A DNA stretch of 64,000 bases, taken from positions 1,364,001 through 1,428,000 of the forward strand of contig NZ_CP117812.1 of the NCBI RefSeq assembly GCF_028728065.1. The letters run 5' to 3'. The notes under the pieces were generated by a model. That model was not told the origin of the DNA. It saw only the letters and a list, made by a program, of their open reading frames with translations, and did not search any database. The translations under genes were made by a program, and so were the position numbers. Shown piece by piece: positions 43,714-62,045 of the stretch (positions are counted from its first letter, which is position 1; each line of letters starts with the position of its first letter). The DNA comes from Lentisphaera profundi (lineage in GTDB: Bacteria; Verrucomicrobiota; Lentisphaeria; Lentisphaerales; Lentisphaeraceae).

Positions 43714-45519
43714 ATGGATGAAAATTCAAACCTCTATAAAATACGCCACTCAATGGCTCACGTTCTTGCTCAAGCAGTTCAAGAAGTCTATCCCAAAGTA
43801 AAACTCGGCTTCGGCCCTCCAATTGAAACGGGCTTCTTCTACGATTTTGATTTTAGTGAAGAAGAATTCTCTGAAGACAAACTCAAAGAAATCGAAAAGC
43901 GCATGAGAAAAATCATTGGTCGCAAACAAGAATTCCTTTACAGCGAAACTGATCTCGATGGTGCCGTAGCAAAATTAGAAGAACTCGGTGAAGGCGATTA
44001 CAAAATCGAGAATGTGCGTAACCTTCATTCACGTGGAGTTGAGAAATTCTCCTTTTACGAAAACGGCAAATTCACTGACCTCTGTGAAGGACCCCACGTT
44101 CCCGATACGGGTGCCCTCCCCGCCAAAGCTTTCAAACTCGATCGCGTTGCTGGTGCTTACTGGTTAGGTAGCGAGAAAAATAAACAACTCACACGTATCT
44201 ATGCACTCTGCTACGAAACACCGGAAGAACTTCAAGAGTTTTTAGAGAGACGTCGTATTGCTGAACAATTCGATCACAAAAAACTCGGTAAAGAACTCGA
44301 TATCTATCACATCGACGACATGGTTGGCAAAGGTCTTCCCCTATGGTTACCAAATGGTACCGCTATTCGTGACGAAATCGAAAAGTACGCAAATGAAATG
44401 GAATTCCGCTATGGCTACAAACGCGTTTCTACTCCGCATATCGCCAAAGAAGAGCTCTACCTAACTTCTGGTCACCTTCCTCATTACGCAGACTCTATGT
44501 TTCCTCCTATGGAAGTTAAAGAGCACGACAACGATGAGTGTACTGAAAAATTCTACCTCAAGGCCATGAATTGCCCTCACCATCACTTAATCTTCAAAAG
44601 TCGTCCTCACTCATACCGTGACCTTCCTCTGCGTTATGCAGAGTATGGTACTTGCTACCGCTATGAGAAATCCGGTGAACTTTCAGGTCTCTTACGCGTA
44701 AGATGTATGACCATGAATGATGCCCATATCTACATGAGCCTCGACCAATTCGAATCTGAATTCCGCCGTACAATGGAAATGTACAAAGAGTTTTACGATA
44801 CTTTCAAATTGACTCAGTATAGCTTCCGACTCTCAGTCAGAGATGACTCCGAGAAATTTGTGGGTGATCCAGCACTATGGGCCAAAGCAGAAGCTTTATT
44901 AGCAAAAGTTATGGACGAAATGGAAATCCCTTATTATATCGGCGAAGGCGAAGCAGCTTTCTACGGTCCTAAAATTGATATCCAGTTCAAAAACCTCATG
45001 GGTCGCGAAGAAACAGTCTCTACTATCCAAGTAGATTTTCAGTCAGGTGATAAATTTGACCTGAAATTCGTTGATGCTGAGGGTGATGACCAAGTGCCAG
45101 TCATTATGCACCGTGCACCTCTCTCCACTCATGAACGCTTCATTTCCTTCTTATTAGAATACTATGGCGGCGCTTTCCCGACTTGGTGTGCACCTGTTCA
45201 AGTTTGCATGCTTCCAGTACAAGAAAGTTGCCTCGAGTATACCAATGCTCTTGCAGATGAACTCACTGGCGACTTCTTCCGTGTCGAAGTTGACAATAGT
45301 AATAATACTTTTAATAAAAAGATTCGTACCAATACCAAAAGAAAAATACCTATGCTTCTCATCATCGGTGAAAAAGAAGTCGCAGAAGGAACTCTCACAG
45401 TTCGTCGCTACGGATCACGTGATCAAATTACTATTCCGCGTGAAGAATTTATTCAAAGCTTCAAAGCTGAAGTTAAAGAAAGAAAAATGTTACGTGAACC
45501 CATGGGTTCAATTATATAG
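43714..45519 (+). CDS. thrS: Threonyl-tRNA synthetase lacking the N-terminal TGS domain
   Basis: Charges tRNA-Thr. The editing domain begins at once (LYKIRHSMAHVLAQAVQEVY, SRGVEKFSFYENGKFTDLCEG), followed by the class II core (GNGTAIRDEIEKY-like region, NCPHH, YRYEKSGELSGLLRVR, GEGEAAFYGPKIDI) and the anticodon domain. The usual first 60 residues (TGS) are missing, and only 95 bp separate it from the divergent thiE start, so they are not merely unannotated. The protein is 601 residues from the ATG at 43714; a TTG at 43699 would add five. A strong terminator follows. Confidence 0.94.
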   Translation: MDENSNLYKIRHSMAHVLAQAVQEVYPKVKLGFGPPIETGFFYDFDFSEEEFSEDKLKEIEKRMRKIIGRKQEFLYSETDLDGAVAKLEELGEGDYKIENVRNLHSRGVEKFSFYENGKFTDLCEGPHVPDTGALPAKAFKLDRVAGAYWLGSEKNKQLTRIYALCYETPEELQEFLERRRIAEQFDHKKLGKELDIYHIDDMVGKGLPLWLPNGTAIRDEIEKYANEMEFRYGYKRVSTPHIAKEELYLTSGHLPHYADSMFPPMEVKEHDNDECTEKFYLKAMNCPHHHLIFKSRPHSYRDLPLRYAEYGTCYRYEKSGELSGLLRVRCMTMNDAHIYMSLDQFESEFRRTMEMYKEFYDTFKLTQYSFRLSVRDDSEKFVGDPALWAKAEALLAKVMDEMEIPYYIGEGEAAFYGPKIDIQFKNLMGREETVSTIQVDFQSGDKFDLKFVDAEGDDQVPVIMHRAPLSTHERFISFLLEYYGGAFPTWCAPVQVCMLPVQESCLEYTNALADELTGDFFRVEVDNSNNTFNKKIRTNTKRKIPMLLIIGEKEVAEGTLTVRRYGSRDQITIPREEFIQSFKAEVKERKMLREPMGSII

Positions 45520-45541: not shown

Positions 45542-45578
45542 AAAGCCACTCTGACTTAGGTCACAGTGGCTTTTTTTT
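45542..45578 (+). terminator. Rho-independent terminator of thrS
   Basis: AAAGCCACT/AGTGGCTTT stem with further TGA/TCA pairing and a run of 8 T, 22 bp past the thrS stop. Confidence 0.92.
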
Positions 45579-45598
45579 CACTATAAGCAGAAATAATC

Positions 45599-45720
45599 TA
45601 GAGTGTTTTAATACCCTTTCTAGGTGCTCTGCACCGATAGAAATCAGCGTACACCGCAAGGTGTATGACTGTGTTACGAAAGTAAATAAGGACCCAATAG
45701 GGGTCCGACACTCTATGTCG
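45599..45720 (+). ncRNA. Candidate structured RNA: multi-hairpin domain
   Basis: Four consecutive perfect hairpins: GGTGC-TCT-GCACC (45623-45635), TACACC-GCAA-GGTGTA (45650-45665), TTAC-GAAA-GTAA (45674-45685), GGACCC-AATAG-GGGTCC (45690-45706). Two have GNRA loops when read on the plus strand, which suggests that direction. An 8-bp stem, TAGAGTGT (45599-45606) with ACACTCTA (45708-45715), encloses them as a multibranch junction. It has no open frame and sits in a 470-bp gap after the thrS terminator. The Acido-Lenti-1 motif reported from Lentisphaerae is one candidate to test; I cannot confirm identity. Confidence 0.5.
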
Positions 45721-46051
45721 ACCTCATTAGCTGAGCCCAATCTCCTTTATACACGGTGCTTATCAGTACACCTTACAATATGCAAAGCATCATGTTTATA
45801 ATATTTTTATTCTTGAATCAACCAAATCCCTACAAAATTTTAAAAATAGTTTTTCTTAGAACTAAGCATTCAAATACTGCGCTTAATGGTCCCTTACGTA
45901 GTAAAGACTTATTTTACTGATCAAGACAAATTCATCTTCTTCATTCACACCCAAATACTCATTTTAATTTTATTACTTAAAAATTTGTTTTTTGATCCCT
46001 GCCGAATTATCTTTTTATAGAGAGTCAATACTTAAAGCCAGGGAGAATTTC
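45721..46051. other. Rest of the intergenic region before fadD
   Basis: About 330 bp without a gene. One further loose hairpin GGTG...CACC lies near 45755-45772; the remaining AT-rich DNA presumably holds the fad operon promoter. No known operator was recognised. Confidence 0.4.
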
Positions 46052-47794
46052 ATGCAAACAACGCAGGATAATATAGACACGTCTGTATGTACAGTTTCAC
46101 AGCTCTTGGAAATAGGCCTAAGGAATTCTTCGACAGATACATTTTTATCTGATTGGAATGGAAAATCTTGGGATACCATTAGCTACAAGAACTTTTACGA
46201 TACGGTTCATGAAATTGCTTACGGGCTACTTTCACTCAACTTAGAACCAGGTGCAAAAATTGCACTATTCGTCAATAACGATTCTCGCTTCTGCCTCTAC
46301 GATACAGCCGCTTCCATTGCCGGTTTCATTACCGTACCACTTCACCTTACTTTCAATGATCAATCGATTTCCTATGTACTTGAACATAGCGAGGCCACGC
46401 TCTGCATAGTCAATGACAAAGCTCAATACCAAAGACTCAAAGAACTCAATCCCAAAATTCAGTATCTACTTACTGATGAGGAAGATATTGAAGAAGCGCT
46501 CAGTGGCCCTGGATTAATCAAAAATTCACAAAAGGTGGCGCTTCCCAAAATCACGGGTGATTCACCACTCACAATTATCTACACCTCTGGAACCACCGGC
46601 CAACCTAAAGGCGTCCTGCTCGATCATAAAAATCTCATCATTCTCAACTCTATTGTCGTTTCAGATTTATCGGATTGCATTAAAAAACACGATCGAGAAA
46701 TAAGCTTCTTACCCCTGAGCCACATCTTTGCGAAATCTGCCATTTATCGCTGGCTCTGGCATGGCACGAGTGTTTACTTCACCAACCCCGACCAAATCAT
46801 GATGCACATTGCGATGGTCAAGCCCCAGACTTTCTCGACTGTGCCCCACCTTTTAGAAAAAATATATCTTCATATTGCTAATGGTGCCGAGAACAACCCT
46901 CAGGTCGATCCTCAAATCTATCAAAAAGCCTTTGAGTTTGCCCATGTCTATGATTCTACTAATGCTGAGCATCAAGCTATGTATCAAGCTTTCTCGCCGA
47001 TTTATCAGGCATGGCAAAATATCTTTGGTGGGGAGCTATCATTTATATGCAGTGGTGGAGCTCACCTCAGAACCGAGCTTTGTCGTTTCCTCAATAATGT
47101 CGGTATCATCATTCTCGAGGGCTATGGCATGACCGAGGCACCGGTCCTTTCCGTCAATCCTTTCCGCGCCCCTAAACCTGGGACTGCAGGCAAAGCTTTT
47201 AGTCATACAAAAATCAAGATTGCCGAAGATGGCGAAATTCTTGTGAGTGGTCCTCAAATTATGGAGAACTACTACAAAGACCCCGAAGCTACCGCCGAGG
47301 TTTTGAAAAATGATTGGTTGCATACCGGCGATATTGGTCACATTGATGAAGACGGTTACCTCTATATCACTGACCGTAAAAAGAATATCTTTAAAATGTC
47401 TACGGGTAAATTTGTTATCCCGACTCCGCTCGAGACCGCACTTAGGGCCGATCCCTTTATTGCTCATGTACTCGTTATAGGCGAAGATAAACGTTTCTGC
47501 TCAGCGCTTATTTTTCCCGAGCTCAGCCTGCTTCCGCGCTTGGCAAAGAAATTCCAACTCGACTCACTCAATCCCCACGAGATATGCCAAAGGCCTGAAC
47601 TCAGAGCCTATTATCAAGGCCAGATCGATAAAGCCAACACCCAATTACCCAAGTGGTCACAAATTAAACAGTTCCAAATTATTCACGAAGAGCTCAGTCC
47701 CTTAAATGGACTGCTCACTGCAACATTAAAAGTGAAGCGCAAAGCTGTCAAAATTAATTACGATCACATCATTCAAGAAATTTATAAAAAATAA
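46052..47794 (+). CDS. fadD: Long-chain acyl-CoA synthetase
   Basis: Activates fatty acids for beta-oxidation. 580 residues from ATG 46052 (MQTTQDN), which has GGGAG 8 bases upstream; a TTG 20 codons earlier has no such site. IIYTSGTTGQPKGVLLD is the P-loop, LEGYGMTEAPVLSVNP the A5 motif, and WLHTGDIGHIDEDGYLYI the A7 motif. RKKNIFKMSTGKFVIP holds the catalytic-lysine region. First gene of the fad operon (10 bp to the next). Confidence 0.93.
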   Translation: MQTTQDNIDTSVCTVSQLLEIGLRNSSTDTFLSDWNGKSWDTISYKNFYDTVHEIAYGLLSLNLEPGAKIALFVNNDSRFCLYDTAASIAGFITVPLHLTFNDQSISYVLEHSEATLCIVNDKAQYQRLKELNPKIQYLLTDEEDIEEALSGPGLIKNSQKVALPKITGDSPLTIIYTSGTTGQPKGVLLDHKNLIILNSIVVSDLSDCIKKHDREISFLPLSHIFAKSAIYRWLWHGTSVYFTNPDQIMMHIAMVKPQTFSTVPHLLEKIYLHIANGAENNPQVDPQIYQKAFEFAHVYDSTNAEHQAMYQAFSPIYQAWQNIFGGELSFICSGGAHLRTELCRFLNNVGIIILEGYGMTEAPVLSVNPFRAPKPGTAGKAFSHTKIKIAEDGEILVSGPQIMENYYKDPEATAEVLKNDWLHTGDIGHIDEDGYLYITDRKKNIFKMSTGKFVIPTPLETALRADPFIAHVLVIGEDKRFCSALIFPELSLLPRLAKKFQLDSLNPHEICQRPELRAYYQGQIDKANTQLPKWSQIKQFQIIHEELSPLNGLLTATLKVKRKAVKINYDHIIQEIYKK

Positions 47795-55427: not shown

Positions 55428-56234
55428 TCACCCTACTATGAAACTTTCATCAACTATACTTATCGATCGTCCTCTTGACCATAAGCTACTTCGCATCAAC
55501 AAGAGCACCTCAAGTCCTGTCTTGATCTCGCGATCGCCTTGGCTACCAAGCTCCATTAAATCTCTCATGTAAACCCGAAATATTTTAGTGTCACTTAAAT
55601 AACTTAAACCAAAGTCCCTAAGAGCCTTTATAATGCCCAGCTTCAACTTTTCTTTACGCTTGGTGGAATGACAGATATCTGCCCAAGAACTAAACTCATA
55701 GTCTGTAACATTAGTAACCATTTGTGCTCGCAAAGGATTCAGCTCGATATATTGCAAACAACGGATAAGAGCCTTGGTGTTTTTGATCTGTATAGCTTTG
55801 TAACAATGATTGAATAACTGCCCTCTTCTACACTTCTCAAATTGTTGATTATACCAGACTGTAAAGCGCTTCTGTAGATTCCCCATAAAATCGCCCAAGT
55901 CATTCAAACGCTTAGCAAATTTGCGCACCTCGCAAGTTCTAGCATCAGGTACTTCTTCTAATGATTTATACTTTTTATAGAGATAGGCTGCTTGTATCAA
56001 ACTAAGCTTTGATTCTCGATCTCTGCGAATGATGAAATGAGCATGGGTACTCATGATGCAGTAATTAATGAGCTCCAATTCATAAATACTTTCCAGCCAA
56101 AAAACTAGCTTACGCAAATGAGTCTTATGCTCACGATTAAAGGCATAAGCCGAATTACCTAAGGTATTGTCAGGTACCTTTATAATCACATGATAGAAAG
56201 TTACATCACTTTCCATATCATAGCTGCGTTTCAT
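55428..56234 (-). CDS. rayT: REP-associated tyrosine transposase, copy 1
   Basis: A Y1-type HUH endonuclease of the RAYT group, 268 residues from the second Met (MKRSYDME). The HUH motif is STHAHFIIRR (about residue 64-66); VWYNQQFEKCRRGQLFN and YIELNPLRAQMV are the RAYT-type Tyr region and signature. I prefer the second ATG (56232-56234) because the GGAG Shine-Dalgarno lies 6 bases before it but directly touches the first. The stop TGA is inside the REP GGGTGAAAT. Identical to copy 3 except at two internal residues and the C-terminus. Confidence 0.92.
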   Translation of the reverse strand: MKRSYDMESDVTFYHVIIKVPDNTLGNSAYAFNREHKTHLRKLVFWLESIYELELINYCIMSTHAHFIIRRDRESKLSLIQAAYLYKKYKSLEEVPDARTCEVRKFAKRLNDLGDFMGNLQKRFTVWYNQQFEKCRRGQLFNHCYKAIQIKNTKALIRCLQYIELNPLRAQMVTNVTDYEFSSWADICHSTKRKEKLKLGIIKALRDFGLSYLSDTKIFRVYMRDLMELGSQGDREIKTGLEVLLLMRSSLWSRGRSISIVDESFIVG

Positions 56235-56238
56235 ATTC

Positions 56239-56347
56239 ATCTCCTTTCATTTCGGAGATAATTAACATGCTAATTTTTAATAGTGCAAATTTATACGCTA
56301 AATTCAGCTCTATTCTATTTATGTAAAATACTAAACACAAAGGAGAT
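56239..56347 (-). promoter_or_regulatory. RAYT leader with two alternative anti-Shine-Dalgarno elements
   Basis: The Shine-Dalgarno AAAGGAGAT (minus strand, 56239-56247) can pair with a proximal ATCTCC (56254-56259, 6 bp, 9-nt loop containing AAATGAA) or with a distal ATCTCCTTT (56339-56347, 9 bp, about 90-nt loop). Both elements are conserved in the three copies. Reminiscent of IS200, where a leader hairpin hides the transposase ribosome site. Confidence 0.55.
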
Positions 56348-58929: not shown

Positions 58930-58990
58930 TATTTTCAGCGCGTCTCAGACGAGTTCACCTCTTTTTAGAGCATTTCAGACGAGTTCATCC
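58930..58990. repeat. Two REP sequences at the left end of RAYT unit 2
   Basis: A full REP (58930-58959, core GCGTCTCAGACGAGTTCACC) and, 12 bp on, a second form (ATTTCAGACGAGTTCATCC, 58972-58990) that overlaps the stop codon of RAYT copy 2. Confidence 0.85.
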
Positions 58991-59939
58991 TACTATAAAA
59001 CTTTCATCAACTATACTTATCGATCGTCCCCTTGACCATAAGCTACTTCGCATCAACAAGAGCACCTCAAGTCCTGTCTTGATCTCGCCATCGCCTTGGC
59101 TACCAAGCTCCATTAAATCTCTCATGTAAACCCGAAATATTTTAGTGTCACTTAAATAACTTAAACCAAAGTCCCTAAGAGCCTTTATAATGCCCAGCTT
59201 CAACTTTTCTTTACGCTTGGTGGAATGACAGATATCTGCCCAAGAACTGAACTCATAATCAGCGGCGTTCTCTACCATCTGAGCTCTTAAAGGATTCAGC
59301 TCGATATATTGCAAACAACGGATAAGAGCCTTGGTGTTTTTGAGCTGTATAGCTTTGTAACAATGATTGAAGAGCTGCCCTCTTCTGCTTTTCTCAAATT
59401 GTTGATTATACCAGACGGTAAAACGCTTCTGTAGATTCCCCATGAAATCACCCAAGTCATTCAAACGCTTAGTAAATTTGCGTACCTCGCAAGTTCGAGC
59501 ATCAGGTACTTCTTCAAATGATTTATACTTTTTATAGCGATAGGCTGCTTGTTTCAAAGTAAGCTTTGATTCACGCTCCCTGCGAATGATGAAATGAGCA
59601 TGAGTACTCATGATACAGTAATTAATTACTTCCAATTCATAAATACTTTCCAACCAAAAAACTAGCTTACGCAAATGAGTCTTATGCTCACGATTAAAGG
59701 CATAAGCCGAATTACCTAAGGTATTGTCAGGTACCTTTATAATCACATGATAGAATGTTACATCACTTTCCATATCATAGCTGCGTTTCATATTCATCTC
59801 CTTTCATTTCGGAGATAATTAACATGCTAATTTTTAATAGTGCAAATTTATACGCTAAATTCAGCTCTATTTTATTTATGTAAACTACTAAAAACAAAGG
59901 AGATAAAAATATTTTCAGCGCGTCTCAGACGAGTTCACC
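58966..59939 (-). mobile_element. RAYT unit 2
   Basis: Same organisation as unit 1, from the left REP (58972-58990) to the right REP (59910-59939). Confidence 0.75.
58985..59791 (-). CDS. rayT: REP-associated tyrosine transposase, copy 2
   Basis: 268 residues from the second Met. HUH motif STHAHFIIRR, then VWYNQQFEKSRRGQLFN and YIELNPLRAQMV. Differs from copy 1 at a dozen or so residues (RERES, KQAAYRYKK, ENAADYEF), so it is an older duplicate. Its stop TGA lies in the REP (GGATGAACTCG). Leader elements as in copy 1. Confidence 0.92.
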   Translation of the reverse strand: MKRSYDMESDVTFYHVIIKVPDNTLGNSAYAFNREHKTHLRKLVFWLESIYELEVINYCIMSTHAHFIIRRERESKLTLKQAAYRYKKYKSFEEVPDARTCEVRKFTKRLNDLGDFMGNLQKRFTVWYNQQFEKSRRGQLFNHCYKAIQLKNTKALIRCLQYIELNPLRAQMVENAADYEFSSWADICHSTKRKEKLKLGIIKALRDFGLSYLSDTKIFRVYMRDLMELGSQGDGEIKTGLEVLLLMRSSLWSRGRSISIVDESFIVG

Positions 59940-61114: not shown

Positions 61115-61927
61115 TTACTCTGTTTTAACTATAAAACTTTCATCAACTATACTTATCGATCGTCCTCTTGACCATAAGCTACTTCGCATCAACAAGAGCA
61201 CCTCAAGTCCTGTCTTGATCTCGCGATCGCCTTGGCTACCAAGCTCCATTAAATCTCTCATGTAAACCCGAAATATTTTAGTGTCACTTAAATAACTTAA
61301 ACCAAAGTCCCTAAGAGCCTTTACAATGCCCAGCTTCAACTTTTCTTTACGCTTGGTGGAATGACAGATATCTGCCCAAGAACTAAACTCATAGTCTGTA
61401 ACATTAGTAACCATTTGTGCTCGCAAAGGATTCAGCTCGATATATTGCAAACAACGGATAAGAGCCTTGGTGTTTTTGATCTGTATAGCTTTGTAACAAT
61501 GATTGAATAACTGCCCTCTTCTACACTTCTCAAATTGTTGATTATACCAGACTGTAAAGCGCTTCTGTAGATTCCCCATAAAATCGCCCAAGTCATTCAA
61601 ACGCTTAGCAAATTTGCGCACCTCGCAAGTTCTAGCATCAGGTACTTCTTCTAATGATTTATACTTTTTATAGCGATAGGCTGCTTGTATCAAACTAAGC
61701 TTTGATTCTCGATCTCTGCGAATGATGAAATGAGCATGGGTACTCATGATGCAGTAATTAATGAGCTCCAATTCATAAATACTTTCCAGCCAAAAAACTA
61801 GCTTACGCAAATGAGTCTTATGCTCACGATTAAAGGCATAAGCCGAATTACCTAAGGTATTGTCAGGTACCTTTATAATCACATGATAGAAAGTTACATC
61901 ACTTTCCATATCATAGCTGCGTTTCAT
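61115..61927 (-). CDS. rayT: REP-associated tyrosine transposase, copy 3
   Basis: 270 residues from the second Met, two internal residues different from copy 1 (R for L at about residue 88; V for I near 212). HUH motif STHAHFIIRR is intact. The left REP is missing: homology to copies 1 and 2 ends at about 61128 and the protein continues as VKTE to a stop in unrelated DNA. So this copy lost or never had its left end. Confidence 0.9.
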   Translation of the reverse strand: MKRSYDMESDVTFYHVIIKVPDNTLGNSAYAFNREHKTHLRKLVFWLESIYELELINYCIMSTHAHFIIRRDRESKLSLIQAAYRYKKYKSLEEVPDARTCEVRKFAKRLNDLGDFMGNLQKRFTVWYNQQFEKCRRGQLFNHCYKAIQIKNTKALIRCLQYIELNPLRAQMVTNVTDYEFSSWADICHSTKRKEKLKLGIVKALRDFGLSYLSDTKIFRVYMRDLMELGSQGDREIKTGLEVLLLMRSSLWSRGRSISIVDESFIVKTE

Positions 61928-62045
61928 ATTCATCTCCTTTCATTTCGGAGATAATTAACATGCTAATTTTTAATAGTTCAAATTTATACGCTAAATTCAG
62001 CTCTATTCTATTTATGTAAAATACTAAACACAAAGGAGATAAAAA

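Follow-up and report, generated by a model that had tools for sequence, protein, structure and literature searches.

A solitary palindromic repeat behind thrS of Lentisphaera profundi as a probable DNA substrate of subclass-1.2 Y1 transposases

The window analysed here is a 64-kb stretch of the Lentisphaera profundi genome (G000:C2:1364001-1428000; 5.46 Mb in two contigs). The cluster of hairpins behind its thrS gene is probably a lone copy, without a gene, of a palindromic DNA repeat that is mobile and of a type that would serve as substrate for subclass-1.2 TnpA. By analogy with known repeat systems, the Acido-Lenti-1 motif (RF01687) is probably a REP-like single-stranded DNA substrate of subclass-1.2 Y1 transposases and not an RNA gene. 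It appears likely that the motif is not a noncoding RNA in general, and that it represents a DNA recognition element of TnpAY1 subclass 1.2 occurring in gene-bearing elements and gene-less miniatures in five taxa: Lentisphaeria, Acidobacteria, Verrucomicrobia, Planctomycetes, and Bacteroidetes. A preliminary description of this DNA had proposed a small RNA gene. That proposal is not upheld, as the sequence belongs to a dispersed mobile repeat which is absent at the orthologous site in two sister species and whose unit type flanks subclass-1.2 genes.

The thrS gene ends at 45519, and the downstream gene, an AMP-dependent ligase by sequence, has its ATG near 46053. The hairpin stretch starts just past the thrS terminator and has no gene within it. 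The four hairpins and the enclosing stem, reported earlier in this gene-free gap, are present and, in the + strand, make up the minimum free energy fold (-49.6 kcal/mol). These hairpins are real; base composition does not produce them by chance, because the + strand folds far better than its shuffles: as RNA it has a z-score of -5.79 against shuffled sequences at -28.5 (sd 3.6), and none of 200 shuffles folds as low. The conserved part alone, folded as DNA, has a z-score of -5.3, and the minus strand folded as RNA has one of -2.3.

The element consists of a pair of head-on two-hairpin units, at ~45619-45742, and is not one multi-branched RNA (Table 1). Eleven composite copies of this kind are alignable over ~120 bp, in the order short hairpin B, 12-nt linker, 8-bp hairpin A, ~22-nt spacer, hairpin A2', 13-nt linker, and hairpin B2'. 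Two loops do carry the letters of GNRA loops (GCAA and GAAA), as had been noticed, yet a GNRA loop is not what the copies conserve. The earlier picture of a single, enclosed multi-hairpin RNA holds in part: the enclosing stem exists in the sequence (45599-45607 paired with 45707-45715), but its 5' arm lies outside the part common to the 11 copies, the GAAA hairpin is poorly paired among them, and the architecture is that of two head-on units. The outer 8-bp stem was rejected as a conserved feature; in L009, the only copy with similarity extending that far, a 3-nt deletion and a mismatch interrupt it. Within the genome, that copy (L009 1845-2330) is the nearest relative of the window element, and its hairpin A2' is split by an insert of ~320 bp.

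Table 1. Features of the thrS-ligase intergenic region, in window coordinates
Feature	Position	Strand	Remarks
thrS intrinsic terminator, left boundary of the inserted stretch	45543..45578	+	AAAGCCACTCTGACTTAGGTCACAGTGGCTTTTTTTT; both sister species carry a terminator of this kind in the same position
Extra stretch, ~350 bp longer than in relatives, boundaries approximate	45580..45970	.	absent between thrS and the ligase gene in G001 and G002
Unit 1, Acido-Lenti-1-type module: hairpin A', linker, hairpin B'	45622..45667	-	RF01687 16.7 bits; R1 43.2 bits
Hairpin B1, GGTGC-TCT-GCACC	45623..45635	+	+ strand fold
12-nt linker GATAGAAATCAG, ending in guide-like TCAG at the foot of hairpin A1	45636..45647	+	
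Hairpin A1, CGTACACC-GCAA-GGTGTATG, one G.T wobble on the + strand	45648..45667	+	95.5% of cells paired in 11 copies
Spacer hairpin TTAC-GAAA-GTAA, not conserved	45674..45685	+	44% of cells paired in 11 copies
Hairpin A2' of unit 2, GGACCC-AATAG-GGGTCC	45690..45706	+	96.9% of cells paired in 11 copies
Unit 2 linker GACACTCTATGTC, doubling as 3' arm of the non-conserved outer stem	45707..45719	+	GACACTCTATGYC in most composite copies
Hairpin B2' of unit 2, decayed	45720..45738	+	aligns with GGACTCACATCCGCGAGCCC of other copies

Acido-Lenti-1 had been named as a test candidate, and this proved to be the right lead. When 151 bases were searched with Rfam, RF01687 matched 45667-45622 on the minus strand, opposite to the strand first considered, with 16.7 bits; the gathering cut-off is 37, so that the covariance-model check put forward earlier did recover the family, but below threshold, and by score the window copy is not a member. 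It does follow the plan of RF01687, in which an 8-bp and a 5-bp hairpin are separated by a 12-nt linker whose ends are conserved. Rfam at the gathering cut-off listed tRNA alone for the whole window, without Acido-Lenti-1, and a search of 361 bases with E up to 10 missed the motif. Terminator, sRNA, and leader families obtained from the 361 bases were discarded, their matches falling on the thrS terminator.

A model, R1, was built from 27 modules of the genus with the two-hairpin plan, the window copy being excluded. R1 matches the window copy over its full length (1-46; 43.2 bits, E 3e-10), and this is the only confident match within the 64-kb window. Genus copies with the same plan reach the RF01687 cut-off. 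Judged by sequence, unit 1 is a diverged Acido-Lenti-1. The helices of R1 have a covariation score of 0.789, compared with 0.186 for shuffled and at most 0.131 for slid alignments; the covarying pairs that the preliminary description had suggested looking for in homologues are thus present. A single-stranded DNA hairpin would covary too: selection by a single-strand transposase would leave the same trace in DNA as a structure kept in RNA, and covariation alone cannot tell the two apart.

The module is a dispersed repeat. At least 78 R1 modules are present in the host genome (150 of 994 candidates were scored), 19 of the 20 solo modules in a sample are clear of any ORF of 100 aa or more, and the 11 composites are head-on pairs; the element therefore has the REP traits of being extragenic, repeated, palindromic, and arranged in inverted pairs. 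Diverged copies occur in the host genome and in two genomes of the same genus, and nucleotide-level copies are absent from the other 57 genomes searched. The thrS and ligase genes are also neighbours in G001 and G002, two members of the genus, where the short intergenic region retains the thrS terminator and an AT-rich TAAAAATTTGTTTTTTGAT block before the ligase gene, while ~350 bp including the element are missing. Because these ~350 bp are lacking from the thrS intergenic regions of the sister species, the sequence comparison indicates that the element behind thrS is an insertion, with ends that can be placed approximately. Part of the extra stretch, at ~45742-45970, cannot be recognised as belonging to the repeat.

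Where the helices are mismatched, the Rfam strand mostly has A.C, which reads as G.T on the complement. With each change counted once per locus, this direction prevails by 28 against 10 in other phyla and by 24 against 7 in the class, and the lean per locus is 33 versus 5 (19:3 and 14:2). The bias runs against the model, because the model rewards G.U on its own strand. This suggests, from the sequences, that the complement of the Rfam strand is the functional one; an exception is unit 2 of the composite, which has a G.T position on the + strand. Such an asymmetry is a sign that one of the two strands is functional, as would hold for a single-stranded DNA substrate but also for an RNA made from the strand opposite to that of Rfam. 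On the complement of the Rfam strand, hairpin A is preceded by [T/C]AG: CTR follows hairpin A', giving YAG, in 81% of 134 modules from other phyla, and AG is invariant in the 27 seed modules of R1. In REPs, GTAG precedes the palindrome (PMC8266576). The foot of the palindrome in the window copy reads TCAG and departs from the REP criterion GT[AG]G.

Dense Acido-Lenti-1 arrays were found around short Y1_Tnp genes in the host genome and in one sister genome. When 65 distinct Y1 genes of the class were sorted by catalytic motifs, an R1 match (E below 0.01) lay within 200 bp of 21 of the 41 Y---Q--HH genes and of none of the 24 others, 11 of which have Y..NP and 13 Y---Q without HH (Fisher, 5e-6). 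Thirteen of the 21 flanked genes are in genomes that supplied no sequence to R1. A tree separates the Y1 motif groups; the module-flanked genes do not form one clade, so that the association is found repeatedly within the group. Nearby R1 matches are lacking for about half of the class's subclass-1.2 genes, some of which show other hairpins there. A hairpin right behind the stop codon, under a strict test, was found for 15/41 versus 2/22 genes, a weakly significant difference (p 0.035). Flanking of a Y1 transposase gene, the trait of a REPtron, is seen for the module type, the window copy itself being unflanked.

Quentin et al. (2018; PMC6006769) defined the signature of subclass 1.2 as DH[IV]H, WQ, and Y---Q--HH, and described the subclass, mostly from Cyanobacteria and Bacteroidetes, as being without REP sequences. 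The proteins studied here carry all three motifs and were assigned to TnpAY1 subclass 1.2 by these motifs (cf. PMC6006769); H55, H57, W95, Q96, Y115, Q119, H122, and H123 are invariant in alignment A4. The protein profile matches the solved structures of IS608 and ISDra2 TnpA.

The association was also examined in other phyla. Contigs were scanned with an eight-protein alignment, blind to the flanking DNA, which gave 80 loci. R1 was run on 79 of them, which come from Acidobacteria, Verrucomicrobia, Planctomycetes, Bacteroidetes, and further groups. A module lies within 250 bp of the gene at 58 of the 79 loci, on both sides at 26, and 101 of the 134 modules fall in the gene-nearest 18% of the flank length (p 1.6e-47). 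The transposase gene is flanked in inverted orientation in many phyla: of 46 nearest upstream modules, 36 lie on the minus strand (36:10), and of 38 nearest downstream modules, 35 lie on the plus strand (35:3). These nearest modules are mostly 45-80 bp off the start or stop codon. With its curated cut-off, the Rfam model also hits the flanks of these genes, in 15 of the 40 loci scanned, among them Terriglobus and further Acidobacteria; the second 20 of these loci were chosen among those with R1 matches. At the Terriglobus locus L202 the order is B-linker-A, B-linker, gene, linker'-B', A'-linker'-B'. Take away the gene, and the outer parts match the window composite in plan (B-linker-A plus A'-linker'-B').

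These observations would be accounted for by the following mechanism. The two units would form the flanks of an element whose complete version has a subclass-1.2 Y1 (HUH) gene between them. Hairpin A would fold once the DNA becomes single-stranded during replication, and the transposase, by analogy with TnpA-REP and IS200/IS605, is expected to bind the folded hairpin. To choose its cut sites, it would rely on the [T/C]AG-type tetranucleotide next to the hairpin base, the putative counterpart of the REP GTAG and of the IS200/IS605 guide sequence. Excision and re-joining of the element by the enzyme could then scatter gene-less miniatures through intergenic DNA, and the diverged window copy is presumed to have been moved by such an enzyme. 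The action of the enzyme on the hairpins and the cut sites are thus inferred from related systems.

It is unlikely that the element is a structured small RNA or other RNA element of the Acido-Lenti-1 family, with the transposase link being incidental or reflecting mRNA-level control of the transposase. The strong + strand fold, the strong covariation, and a wobble asymmetry that fits one functional strand would all be expected of such an RNA, and Rfam classes RF01687 as an sRNA gene. However, an RNA gene accounts poorly for head-on pairs in both orientations, for dozens of dispersed copies per genome that are missing from orthologous sites in relatives, and for one transposase type flanked in inverted symmetry across phyla; moreover, the overall RNA architecture is not conserved. 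It is extremely unlikely that the palindromes are bidirectional terminators or a chance cluster of hairpins. Their position 3' of thrS and their stable stems agree with that idea, which is largely refuted by homologous copies elsewhere with compensatory changes; thrS has its own terminator upstream (45543-45578), and the hairpins have no T-run.

A further possibility concerns what moves the repeat. The composite copies at L010, L011, L027, and L028 are enclosed in larger elements with GAGGCTGTGTGAAAAA...TTTTTCACACAGCCTC inverted repeats at their ends, and since these terminal inverted repeats are unrelated to the modules, another transposase may have moved some composites. That the modules are passengers throughout, with the composite spread by another transposon such as the GAGGCTGTGTGAAAAA-bounded elements, is nevertheless quite unlikely: no such boundaries appear when the sequence is read at the window copy, L016, L018, and L025, and modules flank Y1 genes in phyla far from the genus.

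The proposed mobile DNA substrate of a subclass-1.2 transposase resembles several known systems. Like the REP/BIME/REPtron systems of TnpA-REP (RAYT), it is a palindrome with a short tetranucleotide at one foot, lies outside genes, reaches high copy number, forms inverted pairs, and flanks a Y1 gene. It differs in that the tetranucleotide is of the [T/C]AG type rather than GT[AG]G, that each unit has two hairpins, and that the transposase bears the signature of subclass 1.2 (Y---Q--HH), which is REP-less in PMC6006769. With IS200/IS605 it shares a short HUH/Y1 transposase with Y---Q, subterminal hairpins, and the profile match to IS608 and ISDra2 TnpA; in contrast to IS200/IS605, no TnpB was noticed, inverted double hairpins are at both ends, and most copies are gene-less. 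Compared with the Acido-Lenti-1 RNA motif, the two-hairpin plan, the linker length, the CTR after hairpin A', and the CG before hairpin B' are alike, whereas the window copy is below the cut-off and set head-on against a variant unit, and the evidence favours a transposase DNA element over an sRNA gene. The window element is filed neither as Acido-Lenti-1, in view of the cut-off, nor as a canonical REP, in view of GT[AG]G; its best reading, by analogy, is that of an element working in a REP-like manner through a module that is a close relative of Acido-Lenti-1.

Di Nocera et al. (2013; PMC3733652) described TIRtrons and TIRYTs, in which inverted repeats, some of them "double palindromic", flank Y1 genes, and reported TIR repeat families in some genomes, including Acidobacteria. 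The GGGGWSAS motif that those repeats share is absent next to the genes examined here, and some of the Acidobacterial TIRtron cases may overlap subclass-1.2 loci. We found no paper in the open-licence literature linking Acido-Lenti-1 or Lentisphaera to REP, RAYT, or IS200. If the assignment holds, an orphan Rfam family gains a function, and one at the DNA level, an orphan class of HUH transposases gains a substrate, and the REP-like repeats gain a further class, distinguished by its tetranucleotide and by units of two hairpins.

Acido-Lenti-1 motifs have been described as occurring at times near group II introns, and group IIC introns insert beside hairpins. At L086 3148-3224, on the minus strand, a group II intron (RF00029, 57.7 bits) directly adjoins both an Acido-Lenti-1 copy and a gene of subclass 1.2; a score of 57.7 bits is obtained again in L092. 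Regular tandem Acido-Lenti-1 arrays with spacings of ~71-75 and 124 bp occur at L081 4213-5064 and at G000:C1:1701174-1701838. An IS4-family transposase and a small ORF lie within the Acido-Lenti-1 array at L081 1431-3399, and the same two also adjoin the L009 copy. No subclass-1.2 Y1 gene was found in the 64-kb window. Three near-identical Y1-like proteins of ~270 aa are encoded within 7 kb on its minus strand (55428-56240, 58985-59797, and 61115-61933), and their motifs THAHF and YIELNP correspond to the signature of TnpAY1 subclass 2.1.
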